IMG/VR virus record: IMGVR_UViG_3300044825_003208
Coordinates: 1-23,638 of that record
Direction: 5' to 3' (one strand)
Origin: a virus
DNA length: 23,638 nucleotides
Position numbers and translations under genes: made by a program. Numbering within the stretch: position 1 is the stretch's first letter; each line of letters begins with the position of its first letter. The notes beneath the pieces are model-generated. The model saw only the letters and a program-made list of their open reading frames with translations. It did no database searches and was not told the origin of the DNA. Shown here piece after piece: positions 9,823-23,622 of the stretch.

Positions 9823-11313
9823 TCAGCTGTTGCCGATGTTCGTGATCACGCCCATCGACGGAATGAAGTAATGCTGCAGGACCTGGTCAGAATAGACACC
9901 ATACTCGTAAGCCCTTGTTTTCAAAGGCCATTCGATCTGGTGATAATCCCGACGTGCCCGGATCTGCATCACGTTCTGGATGTTGTTCATCTGATACGGA
10001 AGCTGTGACGTCAGGAACAGAACCGTGCCCGGCGGCATGTTCGGATGCAGCATGATCGGGATTTCCTGCGGCCCGCCGCTCATCGCGTACGGGTTCAGGT
10101 AGCCCTTCGCCATGCCACCGCCGACCATCTGGCCCTGCTGCATCATGAAGGTGAAGCGCGCCGTGGTCGCCGAGGTGCCGCCGCCCAGGATCTTCTTGCG
10201 GATGTTCGTTGCTTCCTGCGAACCAACGATGATGAGGTCCGGGGACAGACGAAGATTGTCCCAGAAGCTCTTCAGCGCGACGTCCCATTCGACGATGCCG
10301 GAAGCGCCGTCGCCGGTCAGGCCGGAACCGTTCAGCGAGCGGAAGTAGGGGCTCATCGAAGAGTCGGCGATGAAACCGAGCAGGCCGTCATGGATCAGCG
10401 TGTTCTTGCTGTAGTCGGTGGCGGCCAGGGCGGTTGCGAGCTGCGTCGAAGACGGCACCGCGGTGGTGTGCGTGTAGGTGTTCACCGTGGTGACGGCGGC
10501 GAAACGCTCGGTGCCGGCGGAGGTGCCGACATACCAGGCATAGGCGTAGGCGCCCTGCACCGCGGTGACGGTCGCGACGAGAGACGACGCGTTGCTGGAC
10601 GAGCCCGTGGTGGCGGTGCCGGCGGACGATTTGATCGCGGTGCCGCCGTTCACCGTCTCGGTGGTGCCATCCTGGTTCGACCGCGAATAGGTCTGGGTCA
10701 GGCTGGAGGCCGAGGCGTTCAGCATGTAGCCGTCGTAGGTCAGCGCCACGCAGATCACGCGATGCGCGGTCGAGTCCGCCAGCGCGCCGCCGGTGGTGAC
10801 GATGGAGACGGACGGGGTCGGCGTGGTGCCGAGCGCGGTGGAGCTGTTGCCGCCGAGGATGATCTTTTCCTCGTCGATCATCTGCGCCTGCAGCAGCGAC
10901 ATCACGGCGCGGGCCTTGATGTCGTCGAAGCCTTCGCCGGCCAGCTCGGCTTCGAACGTGACGTTCGATTCCTGGCCGAGCGTGCGATAGGAGGCGAGGC
11001 GCTCGACCACCGTGACGTTCATCAGACCGCCACGACGACCCTCGCTGATGCCCTGCGGCACGGGGGTCGAATTAATTGCGGTCACGGAACGCCAATTGGC
11101 CTGGATACCGCCACGGCCGGAGACGCGCGGGATCATGTTCCGCAGCGGCGTCAGCACCGGATAGAGGTTCTTGGCCGGGGCTTCCAGGTCATAGGTCTGG
11201 AGGCCCGTGGTTGCGGTACCCGGCTGGGAGAACGTGGCCTTGGCCAGATCCTGGCCGTTTGCCAGCGCCGCCTTGAGCAGGGCGAGGGTTTCGGGGTTTA
11301 GAGGAGCGTTCAT
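9823..11313 (-). CDS. Major capsid protein, HK97 fold with inserted domain
   Basis: A 496-aa protein. After a short N-terminal extension (1-25), residues 26-63 (ATFSQPG...YDLEAPAKNLYPVLTPLRNMIPR) give the N-arm pattern of an HK97-type capsid family. Other core features are SEGRRGGLMNV, TFEAELAGEGFDDIKARAVM, LIHDGLLGFI, DNLRLSPDLIIVGSQEA, TVLFLTSQLPY and the end HYFIPSMGVITNIGNS. Residues about 170-285 form a Ser/Thr-rich insertion with an AYAWYVGTSAG stretch, like the Ig/FnIII-type surface domains inserted in some capsid proteins. There is no long delta domain, consistent with a separate scaffold-like gene upstream. The start is ATG 11313 with GGGGAAG before it. The gene is isolated by hairpins on both sides. 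Confidence 0.93.
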   Translation of the reverse strand: MNAPLNPETLALLKAALANGQDLAKATFSQPGTATTGLQTYDLEAPAKNLYPVLTPLRNMIPRVSGRGGIQANWRSVTAINSTPVPQGISEGRRGGLMNVTVVERLASYRTLGQESNVTFEAELAGEGFDDIKARAVMSLLQAQMIDEEKIILGGNSSTALGTTPTPSVSIVTTGGALADSTAHRVICVALTYDGYMLNASASSLTQTYSRSNQDGTTETVNGGTAIKSSAGTATTGSSSNASSLVATVTAVQGAYAYAWYVGTSAGTERFAAVTTVNTYTHTTAVPSSTQLATALAATDYSKNTLIHDGLLGFIADSSMSPYFRSLNGSGLTGDGASGIVEWDVALKSFWDNLRLSPDLIIVGSQEATNIRKKILGGGTSATTARFTFMMQQGQMVGGGMAKGYLNPYAMSGGPQEIPIMLHPNMPPGTVLFLTSQLPYQMNNIQNVMQIRARRDYHQIEWPLKTRAYEYGVYSDQVLQHYFIPSMGVITNIGNS

Positions 11314-11366
11314 GGCTTCCCCACACTTTCATGTGTTCGAAAGCCGTGGCCCGGCGGCGGATGGAG

Positions 11367-11398
11367 GGCCAACCCCCTGGTTTCCCAAGGAGCCAACC
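11367..11398 (-). promoter_or_regulatory. Capsid leader hairpin 1 (GNRA loop)
   Basis: On minus-strand RNA, CUCCUUGG and CCAGGGGG (core at 11373-11392) close a GAAA tetraloop. The stem extends to 14 bp when G-U wobbles are counted. Two of the core pairs are G-U on this strand and would be C-A mismatches on the other, so the structure belongs to the capsid-sense RNA. It lies about 55 nt before the capsid ATG. Confidence 0.55.
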
Positions 11399-11431
11399 GG
11401 TCGGCCCATCCCGGCAACAATCCCGAGCCCG

Positions 11432-11467
11432 CTACGCCTCACACAATAATGTGTTTCATCGGCGTAG
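11432..11467 (-). promoter_or_regulatory. Capsid leader hairpin 2 (two-tier inverted repeat)
   Basis: The outer arms CTACGCC and GGCGTAG are perfect complements (7 bp). Inside them ACACA and TGTGT form a second 5-bp stem around a 4-nt loop, with small internal loops between. On the minus strand a six-codon frame, M-K-H-I-I-V then TGA (11459-11439), lies entirely within it; no ribosome site is visible, so a leader peptide is doubtful. As DNA the symmetry could also be a protein-binding site. Confidence 0.5.
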
Positions 11468-11476
11468 ATGTCGTTG

Positions 11477-11510
11477 GACAGGGAGACCGGGCTTCCCCGG
11501 TTTCCCTGTC
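11477..11510 (-). promoter_or_regulatory. Capsid leader hairpin 3 (15-bp stem)
   Basis: GACAGGGA-G-ACCGGG pairs with CCCGGT-T-TCCCTGTC around a 4-nt loop, giving 15 paired positions with a single G-T type pair. It starts 10 nt after the stop of the scaffold-like gene. No U-tract follows on either strand. It could be a weak terminator or attenuator between scaffold and capsid, or a processing/stability element. Confidence 0.6.
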
Positions 11511-11520
11511 AAGCAGAAAT

Positions 11521-13149
11521 TCAGGCGGTCTTCGTCAGCTCGTTGACGCGCTTCATCATCGGCACGCCACCGGCGGCATGCACCAGCTTGGTCATCTCAG
11601 TGGCCCGTTCGAATGGCGGCAGGTTGGCGATGCGCCGGGCTTCCTTCTCCAGATCCTCCTCCGAGGTGCCGGAGCCGCCACCGGTATCGGCGGCCTTCGT
11701 CAGGCTATTCAGCTTGGCGCCGGGCCCGACGACAGCCTTCGGCTCCTCGGGCTGCTTGGCCAGCTTCTCCAGCGTGCCCTCCATGTTGGTGACGACCTTC
11801 TCCAGCGCGTCGGCATCAGCCACGAGGGCGACCGTCACGCCGGAGAAGTCGGGCACCGCAGAGCCCATCTTCTTCAGGCTATCGCCGGCCGTGTGCAGGC
11901 GCTTGACGAGGTCCTCGGTGCGTGCGGCCTTCTCGGCACGGCGCTTCGCTTCCTCGTCCTCCTCGCCACCACCTTCACCGCCGGCACCGCCTTCGCCACC
12001 ACCTGCTGCAGGCGGCTTCTCTTCACCGCTCGGCTGGGCATCGGCGCGCGCCGGCGGCGGCTCTTCCTCACCACCACCCGCGGGAGGCTCCTCCTCGCCA
12101 CCAGCCGGAGGCTGTTCCCCTTCGCCCGGAGGCACTTCCTCCTCACCGCCACCCGAAATCTGGTCGACGGTGAACAGGATCGCCGCGGCCAGGCGCCCGA
12201 TCATCTCGACCGGGTCCATATCCTCGCCTTCCTCGCCCCCGCCCGGCTCCACTTCGCCCGGCGGGATTTCCTCGCCGTCGGCCTTGGCCAGGAAGGCGTC
12301 CAGGTCGGCCTTCTCGATGCCGGCCAGCACCATCAGGTCGGCACCCAGGGATACGGCGGCGTCCGCCAGGATGCCCGGGTCCAATGCCCGCTCGGCGAGT
12401 TCGACGGGCAGCGTGGTCTTCACCATCACCCCGTCGTCCTCGGGCAGACCCGGCACCGCGACCTTCATCAGGATCATGCCGGCGGGCAGATGGTCGGTCG
12501 CCTTGCCCATCTCGTCGAATTCGGCCTTTTCGGCCGGCGCGACCTTCTCGTTCACCGCCGCGCTCATCGCCAGCATGCCGGCGTTCAGCATGCCTTCCAG
12601 GAGCGCGTTCACCGTGGCGGAGGCAGGATCGGAGGCCTTCTCCTGGCCCGACCAGTCCTTGCCCTCCTTGATCGCGTTGATCCGCTCATCGACGTAGGAG
12701 ACCAGCTGCGCCACCCGGCCGACGGTGCCCAGCCCCTTGTACATCGGCTTAGCCGCGACCAGCTCGCCGCCCTTGGCCAGCGCCTCGATCTGCTCCTCGA
12801 CGGCCTTACCCAGGTCCGCGTCGACCTGGCCGACGAGCGCATCCTGGAACTCCTGGAAGGTCGTCTTCAGCAGCGCTTCCCGATCAGCGGTGTCCGCCAG
12901 AGCGATGCCGGACACGCTCTTCGACAGCGTGTCGACCATCGAGATGATCGTGTCCTTACCCATGGTGATGTCACCCTTTCCCATTGCCTGGCCAGAGCCG
13001 GATTTCCGCTTGCGGGCGGCCATTTCCCGCAAACGGCGTAGCCAACCCGGCCCAGGGGACGGGTGGAGGGTTTTCGCCCCCCTCTCGAGGTCGTAACCTT
13101 GCAGGCCGCTGGTTCCCGATGCAGGTGCGGCGAACGTCGCTCCACTCAT
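11521..13149 (-). CDS. Acidic scaffold-like protein with capsid-like N-terminal segment
   Basis: A 542-aa protein. Residues 4-34 (ATFAAPASGTSGLQGYDLE...AKTLHP) match residues 26-56 of the major capsid protein at about 17 of 31 positions. A basic linker (WLRRLREMAARKRKSG) follows. A helical region from about 63 (MGKDTIISMVDTLSKSVSG) comes next, then a globular part (DHLPAGMILMKVAVPGLP), a low-complexity Glu/Pro/Gly stretch at about 295-400 and a helical C-terminus (EEDLEKEARRIANLPPFERA). Acidic, helical composition and position between protease and capsid genes suggest a scaffolding protein. The ATG at 13149 overlaps the preceding stop as TGATG, which supports the long form; ATGs at 12984 and 12963 with a GGGAAAGGG site upstream could give a form lacking the capsid-like part. 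Scaffold function is inferred, not shown by a recognised domain. Confidence 0.7.
   Translation of the reverse strand: MSGATFAAPASGTSGLQGYDLERGAKTLHPSPGPGWLRRLREMAARKRKSGSGQAMGKGDITMGKDTIISMVDTLSKSVSGIALADTADREALLKTTFQEFQDALVGQVDADLGKAVEEQIEALAKGGELVAAKPMYKGLGTVGRVAQLVSYVDERINAIKEGKDWSGQEKASDPASATVNALLEGMLNAGMLAMSAAVNEKVAPAEKAEFDEMGKATDHLPAGMILMKVAVPGLPEDDGVMVKTTLPVELAERALDPGILADAAVSLGADLMVLAGIEKADLDAFLAKADGEEIPPGEVEPGGGEEGEDMDPVEMIGRLAAAILFTVDQISGGGEEEVPPGEGEQPPAGGEEEPPAGGGEEEPPPARADAQPSGEEKPPAAGGGEGGAGGEGGGEEDEEAKRRAEKAARTEDLVKRLHTAGDSLKKMGSAVPDFSGVTVALVADADALEKVVTNMEGTLEKLAKQPEEPKAVVGPGAKLNSLTKAADTGGGSGTSEEDLEKEARRIANLPPFERATEMTKLVHAAGGVPMMKRVNELTKTA
11945..12265 (-). repeat. Degenerate Glu/Pro/Gly-coding repeats in the scaffold-like gene
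   Basis: Irregular repeats of the type PPGEGEQPPAGG / EEEPPAGGG / EEEPPPA, encoded by near-repeated triplet-rich DNA (GGAGGC, CCACCA, TCCTCC blocks on the plus strand). This acidic low-complexity linker separates two helical parts of the protein and is a likely site of length variation. Confidence 0.6.
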
Positions 13150-16100
13150 CAGCGCAGCCCCTCGAAATATCGGCCGATCCTGCTGGAGGCCTTCTTGTCG
13201 TAGCCGGTGAACCAGCGATGGATCTGCTTGCCCACCTCGGCCCCGGCCACTGAGCCGGCGGTGGCCCCCGCGAAGGAACCGACCGGGCCACCCACCGCGC
13301 CAGCCGCGCCGCCGGCGATCACACCCACGGTGGAGCCGACGAACTCAGCCGCGATCTGCCCGAAATCCGTGGCGGCCGGCGGCTCGTATCGGCCCGGCGA
13401 CTTCCGGCCGGCCGCGCGATATCCCGCGTCCACGGCCCGCTGCGCCGCCTCATTCGCCACCGCACCACCAGCTGCTGCACCAGCAATCGAAGCGCCCAGG
13501 CGCACCGCGGTGCCGGCCACGCCGCCCATGGCGGGCAGGAACCTGGTGGCGAGGCGCATCACCGCGCCGGTGCGCGCCGGTGCGGCACCGGCCAGGGCGG
13601 AGACGGCGGCCCGGCGGCCGGCACGCGCGTTCAGGTAGCGATCGGCCAGCTTGAACGCGGCGATGCCACCACCGGCAGAACCGACCTCGGCCGCGAACGC
13701 GCCGGACATCCGGTGCGGATCGGTGAAGGCCCGCTCCTTGACCGGCTTCTGCCCACCCACCGGCAACTCGGACTGCGGCCCGCCCATCTTACTGCCGCCC
13801 GCTTTCGGGGGGCTGGGGGTGCTGGCGCTGGCCGCGCCGCCACCCTTCGAGGCGAACTCCCCGCCGCGATCGCTGCCGGATGGCTGGCGCGTGATGCGGG
13901 TTTCATCGAAGGCTCGTCGGGCATAACCGAGCACGCTCTTGCGTAGCGCACCGGTGGGCGTGACCTTCTTCGCCTCGCGGCGGAGCTTCTCCACCAGGTC
14001 CTGCGCGATGCGGTCCATCTCGTTGTAGAACACGTCGTATTCGCCGGCCCGGATCGAATCCCGCGCCGCGCCGCGCGAGAGGGCGGACGAGTCCATCGCA
14101 GCCCCGACCAGCGTGTCGGCCACCACGCTGATGGAATGCCGCATCCCCAGCCGATGATCGGCATGCACCTTGCGGGCAAGCATGCCGATGGCGATACCCA
14201 GCCCGGTGGTGTCGTCCTTCTCGTGCATCGCCAGCGCCTTGGCGACACGCGGCGCATGCCCTTGCGCCACCTCCTTCACCTCGTCGGACTTCCAGCCCTC
14301 CGGCAGATCGAACTGCGAGGTGCTGGACTTGCGTGCCCGTGGCGCTTCGGTGCCGGCGCCCGAGGTTCCCTTGATCGAGGCATGGATGCTGGCCAGGCTG
14401 TCGGCCGGGATCTTCTTCGTCATCCCGACGATGTGCACGGCGCGGTGCAGGTTGGCGCGCTGGCGGTCATCGCGCGGCGCGTTCTCGCGCATGATGCGGG
14501 AGATTTCGTCCGACAGCGCCTCGGTGGCGGCGTCGGCATCGCCTCCCTTCAATCCCTCGTTCTTGGCAAACATGCCCTGGCGGAACATGCCGTCGCCGCT
14601 CCAGCCAGTGATCAGGTTTGTCATCTGGCCCGGCTTCAGAATGGCGCCCTGGCGCGAGAACAGGTCGCCCAGCGTGTTCCAGAAGCCGCCCTTCTCCGGC
14701 GTCTGCCCGCCGATCTCCTTTCGGATGTGGTTCATGAACTCGCCGGCGGCGCCGTTGCGGGCGCTGTCGGCATCAGCCCCCTTGCGGAACTTCACCTCCG
14801 GCGCGCCATCGAAATCGGGCTTCGCCGCCTCGATCTGCTTGTCGTCCCAGCCATCCTGGATTTTCTTGGCCAGATCCTTCGGCAGGTTGCGCGCGTCGCC
14901 ACCCTGCTGCTGCCCGCCACCACCGCCCTGGCTGTTCTGGTTCTGCCGGTTGCGGAAATCCGACACCCGGCCGCCGGCGAAGATCTGCTCGCGTGGCGCG
15001 CCGTCGCGGGCCCAGCGCCGGCCCCACAGGAACACGCGCTCGTTCTTGTTGTCGGGATCGGTCATGGAGACGCCGACGAAGCCGCCACCGGTCACCGGGT
15101 CGGTGTGCCGCTCCAGCTTCATGTTGTTCGGCATCTTCTCTCGCGCGCGCTGGCCGGGCGGCTTCGTCATCTTGCCGTAGAGCCAGTCGCCATAGGCCAT
15201 GGCCGCGCCACCCGCACCGGCCAGCAGCGGCCACGCGCGCATGATCCGCTCGGGCGAGAGCACCGTCTTGTCGCCCTGCTGCTCGGTGAACAGGCTGCGC
15301 AGCGTGCTCTTGAATTCGGTCTTGCCGCGCCGCGCCATCGTCCCGAGCGTGTCGAGGAGGTTCTTGGTGGTGGGCTTGGCCGCGAATTCGGCGACGCGCC
15401 GGCTGACCGCGCCCCGGATCTGGCCATAGTCGCGCATCGCCACGTCGAGCTGCTTGCGCACGCCAGGCGGCAGGATCGTTCTCGAGGCTTTGCTGCCGGT
15501 GATGGCGGTCTCGAACGCCTCCGCTGCCTGGGCGCGCTCGTTCGCCGCCGCGATCACCTTGTTCCGCAGCGCAGCAATCTGCTCTTTCGGCGCGCCGGCG
15601 AGGGTCGCCTCGTTCGCCGCGTTGCGGGCCACGCGCAGCTTGCCCTGGGCGAGCAGTAGCTCTTTCCGCGCGACGCGGGCCGCACGCGGGACCGAGCCAC
15701 GCCCCACGCCAGCCGCAGCGGCGGCCGTCATCCTGGCCTTGTAGTGGCGCAGCTCCGCCAACTGCTCCCCACGCACACGCTCGAGGTTGGTGTCGAACAG
15801 ACTCTCGGCCGCGTCGCGCGCGCGTCGCTCCATGTCCAGGTTGGTACGCGCCATATCGCCAGTGGATGGCGCGGCGATGGGCTTGCCGGAGATCCCGGTG
15901 ATGTCCGGTCCCTTGGTCTTCAGGTCTTCGAACGCCTTGATCGCACGCGTCTCGGCGGTGCGGGCCTTCTTGAACGCCGCCTCCGCCGCGTCGAATTCCG
16001 CCTTCAGCTCCGCCGGCGGGTTTGCGCCCGCCTCCGCCATCCTGGTCTTCAGAGGCTCGAGCGCATCCGCCGTCTTCTGGGTCGCGTCCTCGGCCGCCTT

Positions 16101-18032
16101 CGCCGCGGCACGCCGCGTGTCGATCAGCTTCAGGTGCTCGCCCAGCTGCTTGTCGACCTGCCCGATCAGGTCGTCGCGCGCGGTACGCAGCCGCAGCAGA
16201 TCGTCCTGCTTGTCCTTCGGCAGCTTCGCGATCGCCGCCTTGAACTGCTTCAGGTCGTAGCCTTCGACGGCGCGTGCAGCTGCTGCAGCCGCGACGTTGC
16301 CACGACGCTGCGGGGAGTATTCCGCCGCGCGGACCTCGCGCAGCGTCTTGCCGTTCGCCACCACGAAATCGTCCATCTGCGCCAGCTCGGTGGCGAGATG
16401 CCTGTTGGCATCGGCACGCAGCGCTTCCTTGAAAGCATGCGGCGACGAGGCCCCATACAGGTCCGCCGCGCGCTTGGCCTCATGTAGATCCTTGATGGCG
16501 CGCACGCCGCCGGCGCCCTTGATGTCCGGCACCTTGTTGCCGGCCACCAGGTCCTCGACGATCTTCTCCTTCCGCGACAGCAGCTGGGCGGATTTGCCGT
16601 ATCCCTTGCCCGACATGACCTGCGAGGTGCGGATCTGGAACTTCGATCCGATCCGGTCGGAAATCGCCCGGGCCAGGCCCGCCATGTTGCCGCGCCGCGC
16701 CGCCATCACCGCGGCCGCGCCACCGATCAGCGCGCCGGCAGCAGCACCGGCGCCGACGGTGTGCACCGCGCGATCCTTCGAGGTGAACTTGCCGTCCTCA
16801 TCCCGGTACGGGTTGCCCTTCTTGCCGCTGCCGATCGCGCCGACCGCGCGGCTCGCGCCATAGGCTGCCCCGCCACCGAGCAGCGCGCCGCCGATCGCGC
16901 CGGCGGCACCCGCGATGGACTGGCCGACCGCGCCCAGGGCGCGCAGGCGCACCGCCTTCTGCATCTCCTCGTAGCTGCCGCCGGCGAGTGCGACCTTCAG
17001 CAGCGCCTGGGTCTTCTCGTCGAGACCTTCGCCCTTGCGCACCACGCGATAGGTGAACGGGTCGATGGAGCGCCCATGCACCTCGGGGTCGAGCCAGCTT
17101 CCCTTCACGGACTGGTTGATCTTGGCGCCGATCAGCAGGCCGGGGACGGCGATTGCCGCAAGGCGACGCACCTTCCCGCTGGTCAGGCCGGCGGCGGCCA
17201 GGGCACGGCCGACCTTGCCGGTGGGCGGATGCTTGGCGCTTTCCTCGGCGGCGCGCGCCAGGTTGCGCATCGCGCTTTCCACCGCGGCGATGCCCTTGTC
17301 CCCGATGAAACGGCCCGCCTTCCCGCCGCCGCTTACCGCCCCGCTGACGACGCGCCGCGCCGCCTCGGGGCTGATGCCATTCCAGTTGCGACCGGCGACC
17401 TTGCCCGCGAGCGTGACTCCCTTGTTGGCCACCGTCCGGGCGCCATGCACCGGCACACCAACCAGGAGGGCGGCGGAGACGCGGCCAATCTGCTCGCCGA
17501 GCTTGCCCGTGCCGCGACGCACAAAGCCTGTCTTGCCTGGCGCGCGGGTGCGCGCGAGGGAGGCAGCCGCGGCGACGCCGGCTCCATAGGTGCCAAGCGT
17601 GCGGATCGACTCGCCGGCGGCGCGATATCGGTCGGATACCAGGGCGGTAGAGGTGGCGGCCTCGTAGCCGGCGTTCTCCTCCTGCAGCTTCTTGTGCTCG
17701 TTTCGGGTGCGCGGCATCGGCGGGGATGGCGGAGGGGTGGAGGCGCCTGCCCCCTTATCCGTGAAGCGCCCGTTCTCGTCGCGCGGGTGCTCGTGCTCCT
17801 CGAAATTGTCCTCGGCCACCTTGCGCAGCCCCGCCAGGTGCTCGTCCACCTTGGCCAGGGCGCGCTGGTGCGGGTTGGCGCCGCGATAGTGGCGCTCATA
17901 CTGGTCCTTCAAAGCCTGCAGCCGGGTGGTCGGCCGGCCGTCGCCCAGGGCCACCCAGGCGGCATGATCGGCGACCCGCTTCTTCAGGTCGGCGATCAGC
18001 TCGGCCGAAAAGCGCGCGCGCGGTCGGCTCAT
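13149..18032 (-). CDS. Giant (1627-aa) capsid-module protein with glycine-zipper segments, unknown function
   Basis: I recognise no named domain. Visible features: a charged N-terminus; an HPRDENGRFTDKG motif at 82-94; hydrophobic Gly/Ala-rich segments near 149-160, 185-194 and 292-304; a double glycine zipper at about 368-402 and 424-446, with a second motif (YRDEDGKFTSK, 409-419) between them; a Lys/Ala/Glu-rich coiled-coil-like middle (about 600-860); a further hydrophobic patch (WPLLAGAGGAAMAYGDWLYG); and a Gly/Asn/Gln-rich linker (QNQNSQGGGGGQQQGG). A third motif variant (SGSDRGGEFASKGGG) lies near 1385, followed by a long Gly/Ala-rich C-terminus with repeated GxxxG spacing. The start overlaps the protease stop (ATGA) and its stop overlaps the scaffold-like start. 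Size, membrane-active-looking segments and position suggest an internal capsid protein, possibly ejected with DNA; this is inference. Confidence 0.75.
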   Translation of the reverse strand: MSRPRARFSAELIADLKKRVADHAAWVALGDGRPTTRLQALKDQYERHYRGANPHQRALAKVDEHLAGLRKVAEDNFEEHEHPRDENGRFTDKGAGASTPPPSPPMPRTRNEHKKLQEENAGYEAATSTALVSDRYRAAGESIRTLGTYGAGVAAAASLARTRAPGKTGFVRRGTGKLGEQIGRVSAALLVGVPVHGARTVANKGVTLAGKVAGRNWNGISPEAARRVVSGAVSGGGKAGRFIGDKGIAAVESAMRNLARAAEESAKHPPTGKVGRALAAAGLTSGKVRRLAAIAVPGLLIGAKINQSVKGSWLDPEVHGRSIDPFTYRVVRKGEGLDEKTQALLKVALAGGSYEEMQKAVRLRALGAVGQSIAGAAGAIGGALLGGGAAYGASRAVGAIGSGKKGNPYRDEDGKFTSKDRAVHTVGAGAAAGALIGGAAAVMAARRGNMAGLARAISDRIGSKFQIRTSQVMSGKGYGKSAQLLSRKEKIVEDLVAGNKVPDIKGAGGVRAIKDLHEAKRAADLYGASSPHAFKEALRADANRHLATELAQMDDFVVANGKTLREVRAAEYSPQRRGNVAAAAAARAVEGYDLKQFKAAIAKLPKDKQDDLLRLRTARDDLIGQVDKQLGEHLKLIDTRRAAAKAAEDATQKTADALEPLKTRMAEAGANPPAELKAEFDAAEAAFKKARTAETRAIKAFEDLKTKGPDITGISGKPIAAPSTGDMARTNLDMERRARDAAESLFDTNLERVRGEQLAELRHYKARMTAAAAAGVGRGSVPRAARVARKELLLAQGKLRVARNAANEATLAGAPKEQIAALRNKVIAAANERAQAAEAFETAITGSKASRTILPPGVRKQLDVAMRDYGQIRGAVSRRVAEFAAKPTTKNLLDTLGTMARRGKTEFKSTLRSLFTEQQGDKTVLSPERIMRAWPLLAGAGGAAMAYGDWLYGKMTKPPGQRAREKMPNNMKLERHTDPVTGGGFVGVSMTDPDNKNERVFLWGRRWARDGAPREQIFAGGRVSDFRNRQNQNSQGGGGGQQQGGDARNLPKDLAKKIQDGWDDKQIEAAKPDFDGAPEVKFRKGADADSARNGAAGEFMNHIRKEIGGQTPEKGGFWNTLGDLFSRQGAILKPGQMTNLITGWSGDGMFRQGMFAKNEGLKGGDADAATEALSDEISRIMRENAPRDDRQRANLHRAVHIVGMTKKIPADSLASIHASIKGTSGAGTEAPRARKSSTSQFDLPEGWKSDEVKEVAQGHAPRVAKALAMHEKDDTTGLGIAIGMLARKVHADHRLGMRHSISVVADTLVGAAMDSSALSRGAARDSIRAGEYDVFYNEMDRIAQDLVEKLRREAKKVTPTGALRKSVLGYARRAFDETRITRQPSGSDRGGEFASKGGGAASASTPSPPKAGGSKMGGPQSELPVGGQKPVKERAFTDPHRMSGAFAAEVGSAGGGIAAFKLADRYLNARAGRRAAVSALAGAAPARTGAVMRLATRFLPAMGGVAGTAVRLGASIAGAAAGGAVANEAAQRAVDAGYRAAGRKSPGRYEPPAATDFGQIAAEFVGSTVGVIAGGAAGAVGGPVGSFAGATAGSVAGAEVGKQIHRWFTGYDKKASSRIGRYFEGLR

Positions 18033-18631
18033 GCGCCATCTCGCATCTGCGAGAAGGTGCGCGGGCGGGCCTTCCAGAGCGTGCCGAAAGTCGGCGGCTG
18101 GACCGGGCGCGCCTTCCAGGCTTCAGCGAAGGTGGGGATATGGCCCACCAGGCGGAGCTGCTCGACCACGCCATCCGCCTTCTGCAGCTCGGCGAACCGG
18201 GCCGTGGGGATGCAGGGGTTGTCGACCAGGGAGAGTTCGGTGACGTGCGGCGTGTACCGGGTGAGGTCGCCGTCCTTCCACTTCTTCAGGTAGGAGCCGC
18301 CGACGGAGAAGCCGGTGTAGACGCCCTGGAGGCACTTCTGCCACTCGTTCTCGTCCACCACCTTGGCGACGACATCGATGGCCATGGCGGCATCGTCGAA
18401 GGCGAGATCAACGAGCTTGCCGGCCACCGTCTTGGTGTGCATGACGCGAAGGTTGCCCTTGGACAGGCCGCCGCTGGCGTCCTCGAAGGACTTCGACCAC
18501 TTCTCGAAGGCTGGCTTCGCGGTCGCGTAGTCCATGATCTCGCGGGCGTTGTCAGGGGTTTCCTGCGCCGCCCGCCCGATGATCAGGCGCTTTTCCTCGT
18601 CGATCTTCGCAAGCGGGATGATGAAGTTCAT
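18029..18631 (-). CDS. HK97-type prohead protease
   Basis: A 200-aa serine protease that would process capsid and internal proteins during head maturation. The fold pattern is clear: N-terminal strand MNFIIPLAKIDEEKRLIIGRA, then LRVMHTKTVAGKLVDL with candidate catalytic His65, GVYTGFSVGG with Ser109, and TELSLVDNPCIPTARF with an acidic residue (Glu132) in the place expected for the third catalytic member. I chose the ATG at 18631 (GGTGGGG upstream) over a GTG at 18676, because the family starts with this strand. The C-terminal tail carries a 14-residue tandem repeat (PTFAEAWKARPVQP then PTFGTLWKARPRTF). It overlaps the 1627-aa gene as ATGA. The plus-strand Bro-N gene lies upstream. Confidence 0.9.
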   Translation of the reverse strand: MNFIIPLAKIDEEKRLIIGRAAQETPDNAREIMDYATAKPAFEKWSKSFEDASGGLSKGNLRVMHTKTVAGKLVDLAFDDAAMAIDVVAKVVDENEWQKCLQGVYTGFSVGGSYLKKWKDGDLTRYTPHVTELSLVDNPCIPTARFAELQKADGVVEQLRLVGHIPTFAEAWKARPVQPPTFGTLWKARPRTFSQMRDGA

Positions 18632-18833
18632 GCCGAAAGCCCCACCGGTTCGTGACGGGGCAATCAGGCGTGCCACTGGTTCCCGGCGCTATGGTCGTGG
18701 TAGGAAAGCGGGCGGGCCTGGAAGAGGGGTAAACAGAACAATCCGCCTCCCCGCGCCTCGCAGACGAAGGCGAGCGGGTTAACCAGCTAATGGCGGACGC
18801 TACGGGCCGCCTGACATACAGGGCCTTGATATC
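18632..18833. other. 202-bp divergent intergenic region between protease and Bro-N genes
   Basis: It separates the minus-strand protease from the plus-strand Bro-N gene. I find only weak signals: AGGG about 10 nt before the Bro-N ATG, a short CTCGC/GCGAG inverted repeat near 18765-18785, and AT-richer patches (GGGTAAACAGAACAATCC, GGGTTAACCAGCTAATGG) that might hold a promoter. No sigma-70 pair with good spacing is convincing. Confidence 0.4.
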
Positions 18834-19391
18834 ATGAGCGATAAGCCACAGAAGCCCGGCGAAAAATTCGGTCTGGACATTCCGTTTGAGGAAGCCCTTG
18901 AGCGGTTTGCGAAGGTGACCAAAGAAGAGGTGGAAGCCGCTGCTGGTGATGGGGAGGGGAGCCTTACCATCCGAGATGGAGAGACCGACGACGTTCCGTT
19001 CAAGGGAACAAAAATCCGTCGAGTGTTCCATGAAAGTGAATGGTGGTTTTCCATTGTAGATGTGGTCGGGAGTTTGACGGAAACCACCAACGCGAACCGC
19101 CTCTGGTCAGACATAAAGCGGCAAATGGTTGAAAAGGAAGGGTTTTCTGAGTTATACGACGAAATCGTAAAACTGAATATGCCCGGTAAAGATGGGAAGC
19201 AGTATCCGACCGATGCTGCAAACCCGGAGACGCTATTCCGCATTATTCAATCCATTCGCTCCCCTCGCGCGGAACCATTTAAGCGGTGGCTGGCGAGGGT
19301 GGGATATGAGCGCATTAAGGAAGTTCAGAACCCCGAAATCGCAATTAAGCGGGCTGTCATGGCCTCCGCCGCCCGCGCGTATGCTGCTTGA
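18834..19391 (+). CDS. Bro-N domain (BRO family) moron, C-terminally short
   Basis: A 185-aa plus-strand protein inside the minus-strand head operon. Residues 1-45 hold a small acidic module (FGLDIPFEEALERFAKVTKEEVE) often seen next to or fused with Bro domains. Residues about 58-175 are a Bro-N domain: KIRRVFHESEWWFSIVDVVG, LTETTNANRLWSDIKRQM, AANPETLFRIIQSIRSP, AEPFKRWLARVGYERIKE, NPEIAIKRAV. Bro-N proteins bind DNA and often act as antirepressor-like regulators. Related bacterial proteins usually continue after IDRA/IKRA with a helical C-terminal part of about 100 residues; here the frame stops after about ten Ala-rich residues. Codon and base composition are visibly less GC-rich than neighbours, which points to recent acquisition. 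Its last 67 nt overlap the 3' end of the convergent 145-aa gene. Confidence 0.85.
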   Translation: MSDKPQKPGEKFGLDIPFEEALERFAKVTKEEVEAAAGDGEGSLTIRDGETDDVPFKGTKIRRVFHESEWWFSIVDVVGSLTETTNANRLWSDIKRQMVEKEGFSELYDEIVKLNMPGKDGKQYPTDAANPETLFRIIQSIRSPRAEPFKRWLARVGYERIKEVQNPEIAIKRAVMASAARAYAA

Positions 19392-22274: not shown

Positions 22275-22615
22275 CCCTCCCCTCCCTGCAGATACCAGTC
22301 GGAGAGGTCCGGCAAATCGACGGTCTGCCCCTTCAAGGCGTGGGTGCAGTCGCCGAGGAACTCGATCTTCCCGTTGCGGAGGAAGTAGTGGCACACCTCA
22401 TCAGGCTGCGGCTCCTCGTCCTTTGACCAGGGGATGCGCACCACCATTGATGGGCTGAACGTGGGCTGCTCCGCATTCCCGTCCCAGGTCCAGCGCGCAC
22501 CCGTGTACGGATTGGGCGCGTTGACGTTGAACCGATGCGTGGTCTCGCACCCCGGGCAGTAGTGGATCGGCTCCCCGGCCAGAAGGACGATCTTTCGCGA
22601 CAGGACCTGGGTCAC
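22271..22615 (-). CDS. DUF6527-type protein, first copy
   Basis: A 114-aa protein with the same skeleton as the copy downstream: IHYCPGCETTHRF (Cys20, Cys23, His27), RWTWDGNAEQPTFSPSM, EVCHYFLRNGKIEFLGD (Cys75, His76) and CTHALKGQTVDLPDL (His92). It starts with GTG at 22615, which overlaps the upstream stop as GTGA. Metal binding is inferred from the conserved Cys/His residues; the biological role is unknown. Two copies side by side in a head operon suggest duplication and a possible heteromeric or specialised use. Confidence 0.85.
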   Translation of the reverse strand: MTQVLSRKIVLLAGEPIHYCPGCETTHRFNVNAPNPYTGARWTWDGNAEQPTFSPSMVVRIPWSKDEEPQPDEVCHYFLRNGKIEFLGDCTHALKGQTVDLPDLSDWYLQGGEG

Positions 22616-23622
22616 ACCTTCCCTCCCGTCCCGATGGTCTCGAGGATGTGCTGCGCCAGCGGCAAGGTCCGGCGTACATATTCCGGCACCTCATTCCGGA
22701 CAGACCCGCGCGGATCCTTGCCGGTGCAGGCCGCGATGATCCGGCACGCCATGTCGTGCTGCTCCATCAGGCAGGCCTGGCGCGGGTCGCGCTTCACCAG
22801 CTCCTGCAGCGGACGCGTGCGCCGGCGGACCTCGCCGGTGATCTTGTTGCGCCGCATGTCGGCGAAGGTGACGCCGAACTCGTCGCGGTAGGGCTTCCAG
22901 CTGCCCTTGGCCTTCTCGTGGAACTGCGCGCCCAGGCGGCGGCGGATGAACCGCATGTAGGGCTCCAGCGGCTTCATCTCCGCCTTCAGCGTATCGTCCA
23001 TGCGGAACTGGCTGGCATCGATGATGCCGTGGTCGTGCAGCGCGGCCAGGGCGGCATGGTTGTAGGCCGCGTTCAGCGCACCGCGCGTCGTTCCCGCCGG
23101 CACCAGCGGGGTATCCAGCGGGCTCTGGTTCTTCACCCGGAACTTCGGCTGCGGCAGGCGTTTGTCACGCTGCTGCGCCAGGGTGGGCTGCGAGCGGAAC
23201 ATCAGCCCGGCCCGCTCGATCGCCGCGCCGCGGTCGCCCCGCACGATGTCCTTCAGCTGGCGGAACAGCGCCTGGTGCTGCTCGACCGTCACCCCCTTGG
23301 GGATCTGCTCCACCACCTTGCGTTCCAGGAAGGAGCCGACCGGCTTCTCCTTCTCCCGGCTGCCGGTATAGGCGACGGGCAGGCCGGACAGCTTCGCGCC
23401 CATCCGCTGCCACGCCTCGCCGCGGGTATAGGACCGGCGTTCCGGCCCGGGCGACAACTCGCGCAGGCTGGCGAAGCGGAAGGATGGGGCACCGTTCGCC
23501 CCGCCGAACCTCCGGGGATTTGCGTCCGCACCGTCCGCACCCCCTTTCGGCGCGAAGCGGCCGTCGTCGTCGCGCTTGTGCTTGCTCTCGTCGAAGGCCT
23601 TGGCCAGGGGCAGGGTGATCAT
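22612..23622 (-). CDS. Unknown 336-aa head-module protein with PLAKA leader and RDxxGRF motif
   Basis: It begins MITLPLAKAFDESKHKRDDD followed by GRFAPKGG, so a short leader like that of the 145-aa protein is joined to the same RDxxGRF motif found in the 1627-aa protein. The rest is basic and helical (RSYTRGEAWQRMGAKLSG, EQHQALFRQLKDIVRG, EPYMRFIRRRLGAQFHEKAKG, LPLAQHILETIG), with no domain I recognise. GGAGGA lies 8 nt before the ATG at 23622. It ends in a GTGA overlap with the first DUF6527 gene. By position it is likely a head or portal-associated protein. Confidence 0.75.
   Translation of the reverse strand: MITLPLAKAFDESKHKRDDDGRFAPKGGADGADANPRRFGGANGAPSFRFASLRELSPGPERRSYTRGEAWQRMGAKLSGLPVAYTGSREKEKPVGSFLERKVVEQIPKGVTVEQHQALFRQLKDIVRGDRGAAIERAGLMFRSQPTLAQQRDKRLPQPKFRVKNQSPLDTPLVPAGTTRGALNAAYNHAALAALHDHGIIDASQFRMDDTLKAEMKPLEPYMRFIRRRLGAQFHEKAKGSWKPYRDEFGVTFADMRRNKITGEVRRRTRPLQELVKRDPRQACLMEQHDMACRIIAACTGKDPRGSVRNEVPEYVRRTLPLAQHILETIGTGGKV

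Follow-up and report, generated by a model that had tools for sequence, protein, structure and literature searches.

A capsid-arm-like tag at the start of a predicted phage scaffold and on otherwise unrelated head-module proteins of its relatives

Why should a protein that is predicted to scaffold a phage head begin with a piece resembling the N-terminal arm of the capsid protein encoded next to it? The question is raised by IMG/VR record IMGVR_UViG_3300044825_003208, of which positions 1-23,638 (23.6 kb; the whole stretch of DNA analyzed, hereafter the window) encode a scaffold-like open reading frame (ORF) of 542 aa directly upstream of the major capsid gene (Table 1). Residues 4-34 of this ORF and residues 26-56 of the capsid are identical at 17 of 31 positions by direct count on the translations, and their local BLOSUM62 score of 95 lies above all 500 shuffles (42 +/- 6, maximum 75), which confirms the protein likeness reported in a sequence-only reading of this DNA. 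A translated search of the window likewise located the second match near residues 25-72 of the capsid (E 1.1e-5). That reading had also called the DNA visibly similar, and this part does not stand; the alignment score of 19.0 is at best borderline against a shuffle maximum of 19.5, and a duplication at the DNA level, tested by the same alignment, is unsupported. An extension of the match out of frame into PLRNMIPR is not relied on, and the gapped extension seen in the window is absent from the related locus L090.

Sequence comparisons establish the segment as a translated, selected, capsid-arm-like tag, and we consider it rather probable that it is a cis-acting head-targeting tag that imitates the N-arm of the phage's own capsid type. 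The proposed coupling of the scaffold start to the upstream stop is seen as a TGATG overlap, with GAGGGG about 8 nt upstream of the tagged start (13149). Because neither tblastn nor a peptide-pattern scan with the scaffold sequence found relatives, about 350 loci were collected through the capsid; most relatives are metagenomic contigs, and many of these are incomplete. The scaffold homologues comprise 13 distinct sequences (the window's included), each directly upstream of a capsid gene, and the leader is present at the N-terminus of all 13, together with a basic tail. Among six window-type scaffolds, the ratio of nonsynonymous to synonymous change (pN/pS) is 0.13-0.63 in the leader against 0.37-1.0 in the rest of the protein and is lower in the leader in 15 of 15 pairs, as obtained by simple counts from pairs that are not independent. 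This constraint at the amino-acid level bears out the expectation that the segment is translated.

The tag is also found beyond scaffolds. A hidden Markov model (HMM) trained on 166 capsid N-segments, with the window excluded, was applied to ORFs other than capsids; the top nine matches (14.4-20.4 bits), three of which come from near-identical contigs, are all tag-bearing head-module ORFs and exceed the best scores of 12.5 for antisense and 10.3 for shuffled sequences. Later models that include tag sequences give inflated scores, and the capsid-only scores are unaffected by this. With further loci added, the carriers comprise about 31 curated loci and three Bacillota phages. A scan for further Bacillota relatives yielded one new tagged case, L370; the more divergent tag of phage THSA-485A was missed by the A6 model, which was built from the curated tags; and no tag was detectable in Brevundimonas phage Polewnik or Arthrobacter phage Mufasa8. 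All 31 tag-positive records, many of them incomplete, contain exactly one tag and one capsid segment each.

Across these phages, the same short peptide is attached to otherwise unrelated head proteins (scaffold, protease-scaffold, NUDIX/Acb1, InPase, ART, Zeta toxin, and ParB-like). It is N-terminal in window-type scaffolds and some proteases; lies between the protease and scaffold domains in L057/L273, L276, L216, L089, and phages THSA-485A and MMB025; is found in short basic ORFs (58-87 aa); and stands at either end of large effector-domain proteins. The latter carry NUDIX, Acb1, and protease domains (L335, L347), NUDIX and protease (L336), InPase (L271 and, with a C-terminal tag, L214), ART-PolyVal (L013), or Zeta toxin (L241, L214). 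The carrier is either the protease/scaffold gene or the gene immediately upstream, with the exceptions of L068 and L250, where it is about 1 kb away. In L335 (6500-9649) and L347 (5541-8651), a single ORF features the tag followed by NUDIX and Acb1 domains, the latter directed against the cyclic-oligonucleotide-based antiphage signaling system (anti-CBASS), fused to a head maturation protease. In L068 (4031-4819), the tag and basic tail precede a 263-aa protein that is ParB-like by eye and has no Pfam or PHROG match. The sequence-only reading foresaw neither the non-scaffold carriers nor the basic tail and nested start described below.

The window tag has 17 of 19 residues in common with the L335 tag versus 12 of 19 with its own capsid, so it was not copied recently from the capsid gene nearby. 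Across the carriers, however, tags score higher against the capsid of their own phage than against permuted capsids (mean 47.3 vs 39.7, p 5e-5). The clearest case is MMB025, whose protease-scaffold has KTLDTSSGLQPYNL where the capsid reads KTFDTSSGLQPYNL (a score of 74 against a shuffle maximum of 47); the tag of THSA-485A scores 51 against its own capsid, with 2 of 300 shuffles as good, and that of its relative L370 scores 49, with 0 of 300 as good.

A Lys/Arg-rich stretch follows the tag in most or nearly all cases, more weakly in the internal class; in the window, the 40 residues after the tag core contain 10 R+K versus 2 D+E. The scaffold leaders of L194, L199, L183, L192, L191, and L229 form a subclade in which the post-tag tail is itself conserved (RRRRPVPLLxTSWVT), and this conservation suggests a second binding element. 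Further downstream, 41-59 codons past the tag, an in-frame ATG with a Shine-Dalgarno-like sequence is present in all 11 N-tagged scaffold or protease genes examined, compared to a background of 6.9% of random positions in the same loci; nine of the 11 genes are homologous, so there are fewer independent events than the count implies. In the window, the nested start is the ATG at 12963 with AAAGGGTGA, and the conserved part of the scaffold starts there. We infer that the gene yields a tagged long form (from 13149) and an untagged short form (from 12963).

From the resemblance of the tag and the nature of its carriers, we further infer that it may dock or target its carrier at the forming shell. 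The tagged scaffold would be kept at the inner face of that shell because its tag fills the site of the capsid N-arm or competes for it, and the basic tail would touch acidic scaffold or DNA. Where Lys precedes the tag, the maturation protease would cut there later, and capsids are probably processed in this way too. On the effector (polyvalent) proteins of other phages, the tag would act as a signal for loading into the head, comparable to capsid targeting sequences in T4 and P1. A broader proposal, which we put forward only tentatively, is that, in phages of this capsid family, mimicry of the phage's own capsid N-arm serves as a mobile loading tag with one passenger per phage, ranging from scaffold to anti-CBASS or toxin-like effectors; the passenger would dock where N-arms bind in the procapsid, perhaps at sites left unfilled close to the portal vertex, before being released by cleavage and injected.

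The main alternative, which we find rather doubtful, is a shared recognition motif by which one head maturation protease cuts the capsid and the tagged proteins without docking. The AlphaFold2 (AF2) model of the capsid (predicted local distance difference test, pLDDT, 84.5) has an HK97 fold, and Foldseek matches it to capsids that include those of HK97, SU10, and SPO1; searching the PDB by sequence with a capsid profile returned nothing relevant. The N-terminus of the model comprises a propeptide-like helix (residues 5-18), a disordered stretch (20-34), a strand (39-42), and a helix (44-49). Lys25, which directly precedes the capsid segment and is invariant in 48 of 48 diverse capsids, falls in the disordered linker between the propeptide-like helix and the ordered shell domain. 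Lys also precedes 17 of 19 tags outside the N-terminal/scaffold class versus 0 of 12 inside it, the window included (Fisher p 6e-7, for classes that were defined after the data were seen and are thus partly post hoc). Given a Lys before both the capsid segment and most non-N-terminal tags, cleavage may be involved; the location of the tag at the junction of fused protease-scaffold proteins and the precedent of phage 80-alpha (PMC5744158) point in the same direction. A protease site, however, would not be expected to require the 15-20 residues conserved beyond the Lys, a long stretch for such a site; selection maintains the segment in the scaffold class, to which the window belongs, although the Lys is missing there; and the basic tail is left unexplained. 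Docking and cleavage are compatible and can both be true, with a carrier that docks and is then cut. The docking mimic and the protease or assembly tag both survive among the three origins that the sequence-only reading had proposed.

An improbable alternative is that the upstream frame acts mainly as a translational leader that couples or regulates nested scaffold initiation, with an incidental peptide. The TGATG coupling and the nested ATG with its Shine-Dalgarno-like sequence in every N-tagged gene are consistent with such a role, but the constraint is at the amino-acid level, C-terminal and internal tags occur without a nested start, and the peptide resembles the capsid protein. The third proposed origin, a decaying remnant of a partial capsid-gene duplication, is very unlikely. 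Although the likeness of the window and L090 tags extends slightly further into the capsid (AKxLxP) and there is weak similarity of the DNA, the leader is retained in all 13 homologues found, under purifying selection stronger than in the rest of the protein, and the window tag is closer to that of L335 than to the capsid of the same phage. A chance likeness between low-complexity N-termini, favored by nothing other than the shortness of the match, has a negligible probability and is refuted by the shuffle tests, the capsid-only HMM, and the recurrence of the tag in many loci.

Several observations weigh against a head-targeting tag. Docking is deduced from resemblance, and the capsid model shows little order where the tag core matches it (residues 20-34). 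A clear tag, as judged by own-capsid comparison, is present in about 28 of 273 unique capsid loci, or about 10% of relatives; it is undetected in the other 90% or so and is thus not essential to this head design. A single tag per genome is unlike T4, where the targeting sequence is on many proteins; together with the many untagged relatives, it speaks against a general cargo signal. Finally, neither the fit of tags to their own capsids (47.3 vs 39.7) nor the 11 of 11 nested starts carries a correction for phylogeny.

In phage T4, proteins with a capsid targeting sequence (CTS) associate with the scaffold core. The tag is similar to the CTS of internal proteins and Alt in that both are short, usually N-terminal peptides common to otherwise unrelated head-packaged effectors. 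Unlike the CTS, it looks like the N-arm of the capsid, is present as a single copy in each genome, can also be located internally or at the C-terminus, features a basic tail, and is, in the window, on the scaffold itself. Among T-even phages, the internal proteins are a varied set of defence proteins that have nothing but the CTS in common (PMC3012670), and the T4 CTS is removed by the prohead protease (PMC5694885). Likewise, the N-terminal 30 residues of DarB, a large antirestriction protein of P1, suffice for a reporter to enter the head; the Dar proteins show no consensus by BLAST, and, unlike the tag here, the DarB signal has no reported capsid resemblance (PMC9024508). In Staphylococcus aureus phage 80-alpha, a sequence at the N-terminus is common to the capsid, the scaffold, and ribosomal protein L27 and is cut by the host protease Prp; assembly absolutely requires that of the scaffold, even when it is uncuttable (PMC5744158). 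The likeness here is an N-terminal motif common to capsid and scaffold; the differences are another sequence, a host protease in 80-alpha, the absence of the Lys site from the window scaffold, and the additional presence of the tag on effectors. Head packaging and injection are inferred for polyvalent proteins (ART-PolyVal, InPase, Zeta toxin) in the available part of one account (PMC5512222); several tag carriers have such domains and lie in head modules, and a capsid-like tag is not met in that part. Similarly, the available part of an account of encapsulins describes short cargo-loading peptides that load cargo into an HK97-fold shell, which, unlike the heads considered here, is cellular (PMC8346489). 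No description of such a tag was found in the open-access literature.

The minus-strand order of head genes in the window is MuF-type head protein, XkdF-like protease, 1627-aa ORF, 542-aa scaffold-like ORF, and capsid. The protease and scaffold genes are fused or adjacent in most relatives; the 1627-aa protein lies between them in the window, L088, and L024. An opposite-strand ORF (18834-19391, +), BRO-like by eye, separates the protease gene from the head genes upstream of it. The scaffold role of the 542-aa ORF is predicted from its position directly upstream of the capsid gene and its acidic, predicted helical character; it has distant matches to the scaffold parts of protease-scaffold fusions and none to a curated scaffold family, and searches of Pfam and PHROG returned no match. 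Neither the 542-aa nor the 1627-aa protein has a Pfam match, and polyvalent effector domains are seen in relatives only. The AF2 model of the scaffold is of low confidence (pLDDT 52) with a disordered leader, and it is too poor for interpretation. A second recurrent head-module motif, [HK]xRD(D/E)xGRF.xKG (HPRDENGRFTDKGAG, HKRDDDGRFAPKGG), occurs in 24 sense ORFs from 23 loci and in 0 antisense ORFs; in the window, it is found in ORF 13149-18032 (near residue 90) and ORF 22612-23622 (near residue 20), and it is possibly another head-protein signature.

Table 1. Features of the head module discussed in the text, with positions in the window.
Feature	Position	Strand	Remarks
Major capsid protein, 496 aa	9823..11313	-	phrog_13692 family, E 1.1e-129; HK97 fold
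Capsid N-arm segment matched by the tag, residues 26-44	11182..11238	-	
Capsid Lys25, candidate maturation cleavage site	11239..11241	-	invariant in 48 diverse capsids
Scaffold-like ORF, 542 aa	11521..13149	-	starts with capsid-like leader; acidic, low-complexity, predicted helical
Nested in-frame ATG, predicted start of untagged scaffold	12961..12963	-	scaffold domain of homologues starts about here
Shine-Dalgarno-like AAAGGGTGA	12971..12979	-	7 nt ahead of nested ATG
Basic tail of leader, scaffold residues 35-54 (WLRRLREMAARKRKSG...)	12988..13047	-	R+K-rich
Capsid-arm-like tag, scaffold residues 4-22 (ATFAAPASGTSGLQGYDLE)	13084..13140	-	
TGATG overlap of 1627-aa ORF stop and tagged scaffold start	13147..13151	-	
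Head-module protein, 1627 aa, between protease and scaffold genes	13149..18032	-	relatives in L088, L024
Head maturation protease (XkdF-like)	18029..18676	-	phrog_9427, E 9.4e-14

Few phages have known head-loading signals, and such signals are difficult to recognize by sequence. A tag that can be read from its likeness to the capsid arm would make head-packaged, injected effectors predictable from sequence in this family, and the Alicyclobacillus phage MMB025 and Thermoanaerobacterium phage THSA-485A offer cultivated test cases. The tag could also serve as a portable loading signal, and it suggests a specific way for scaffold and shell to compete for one site.

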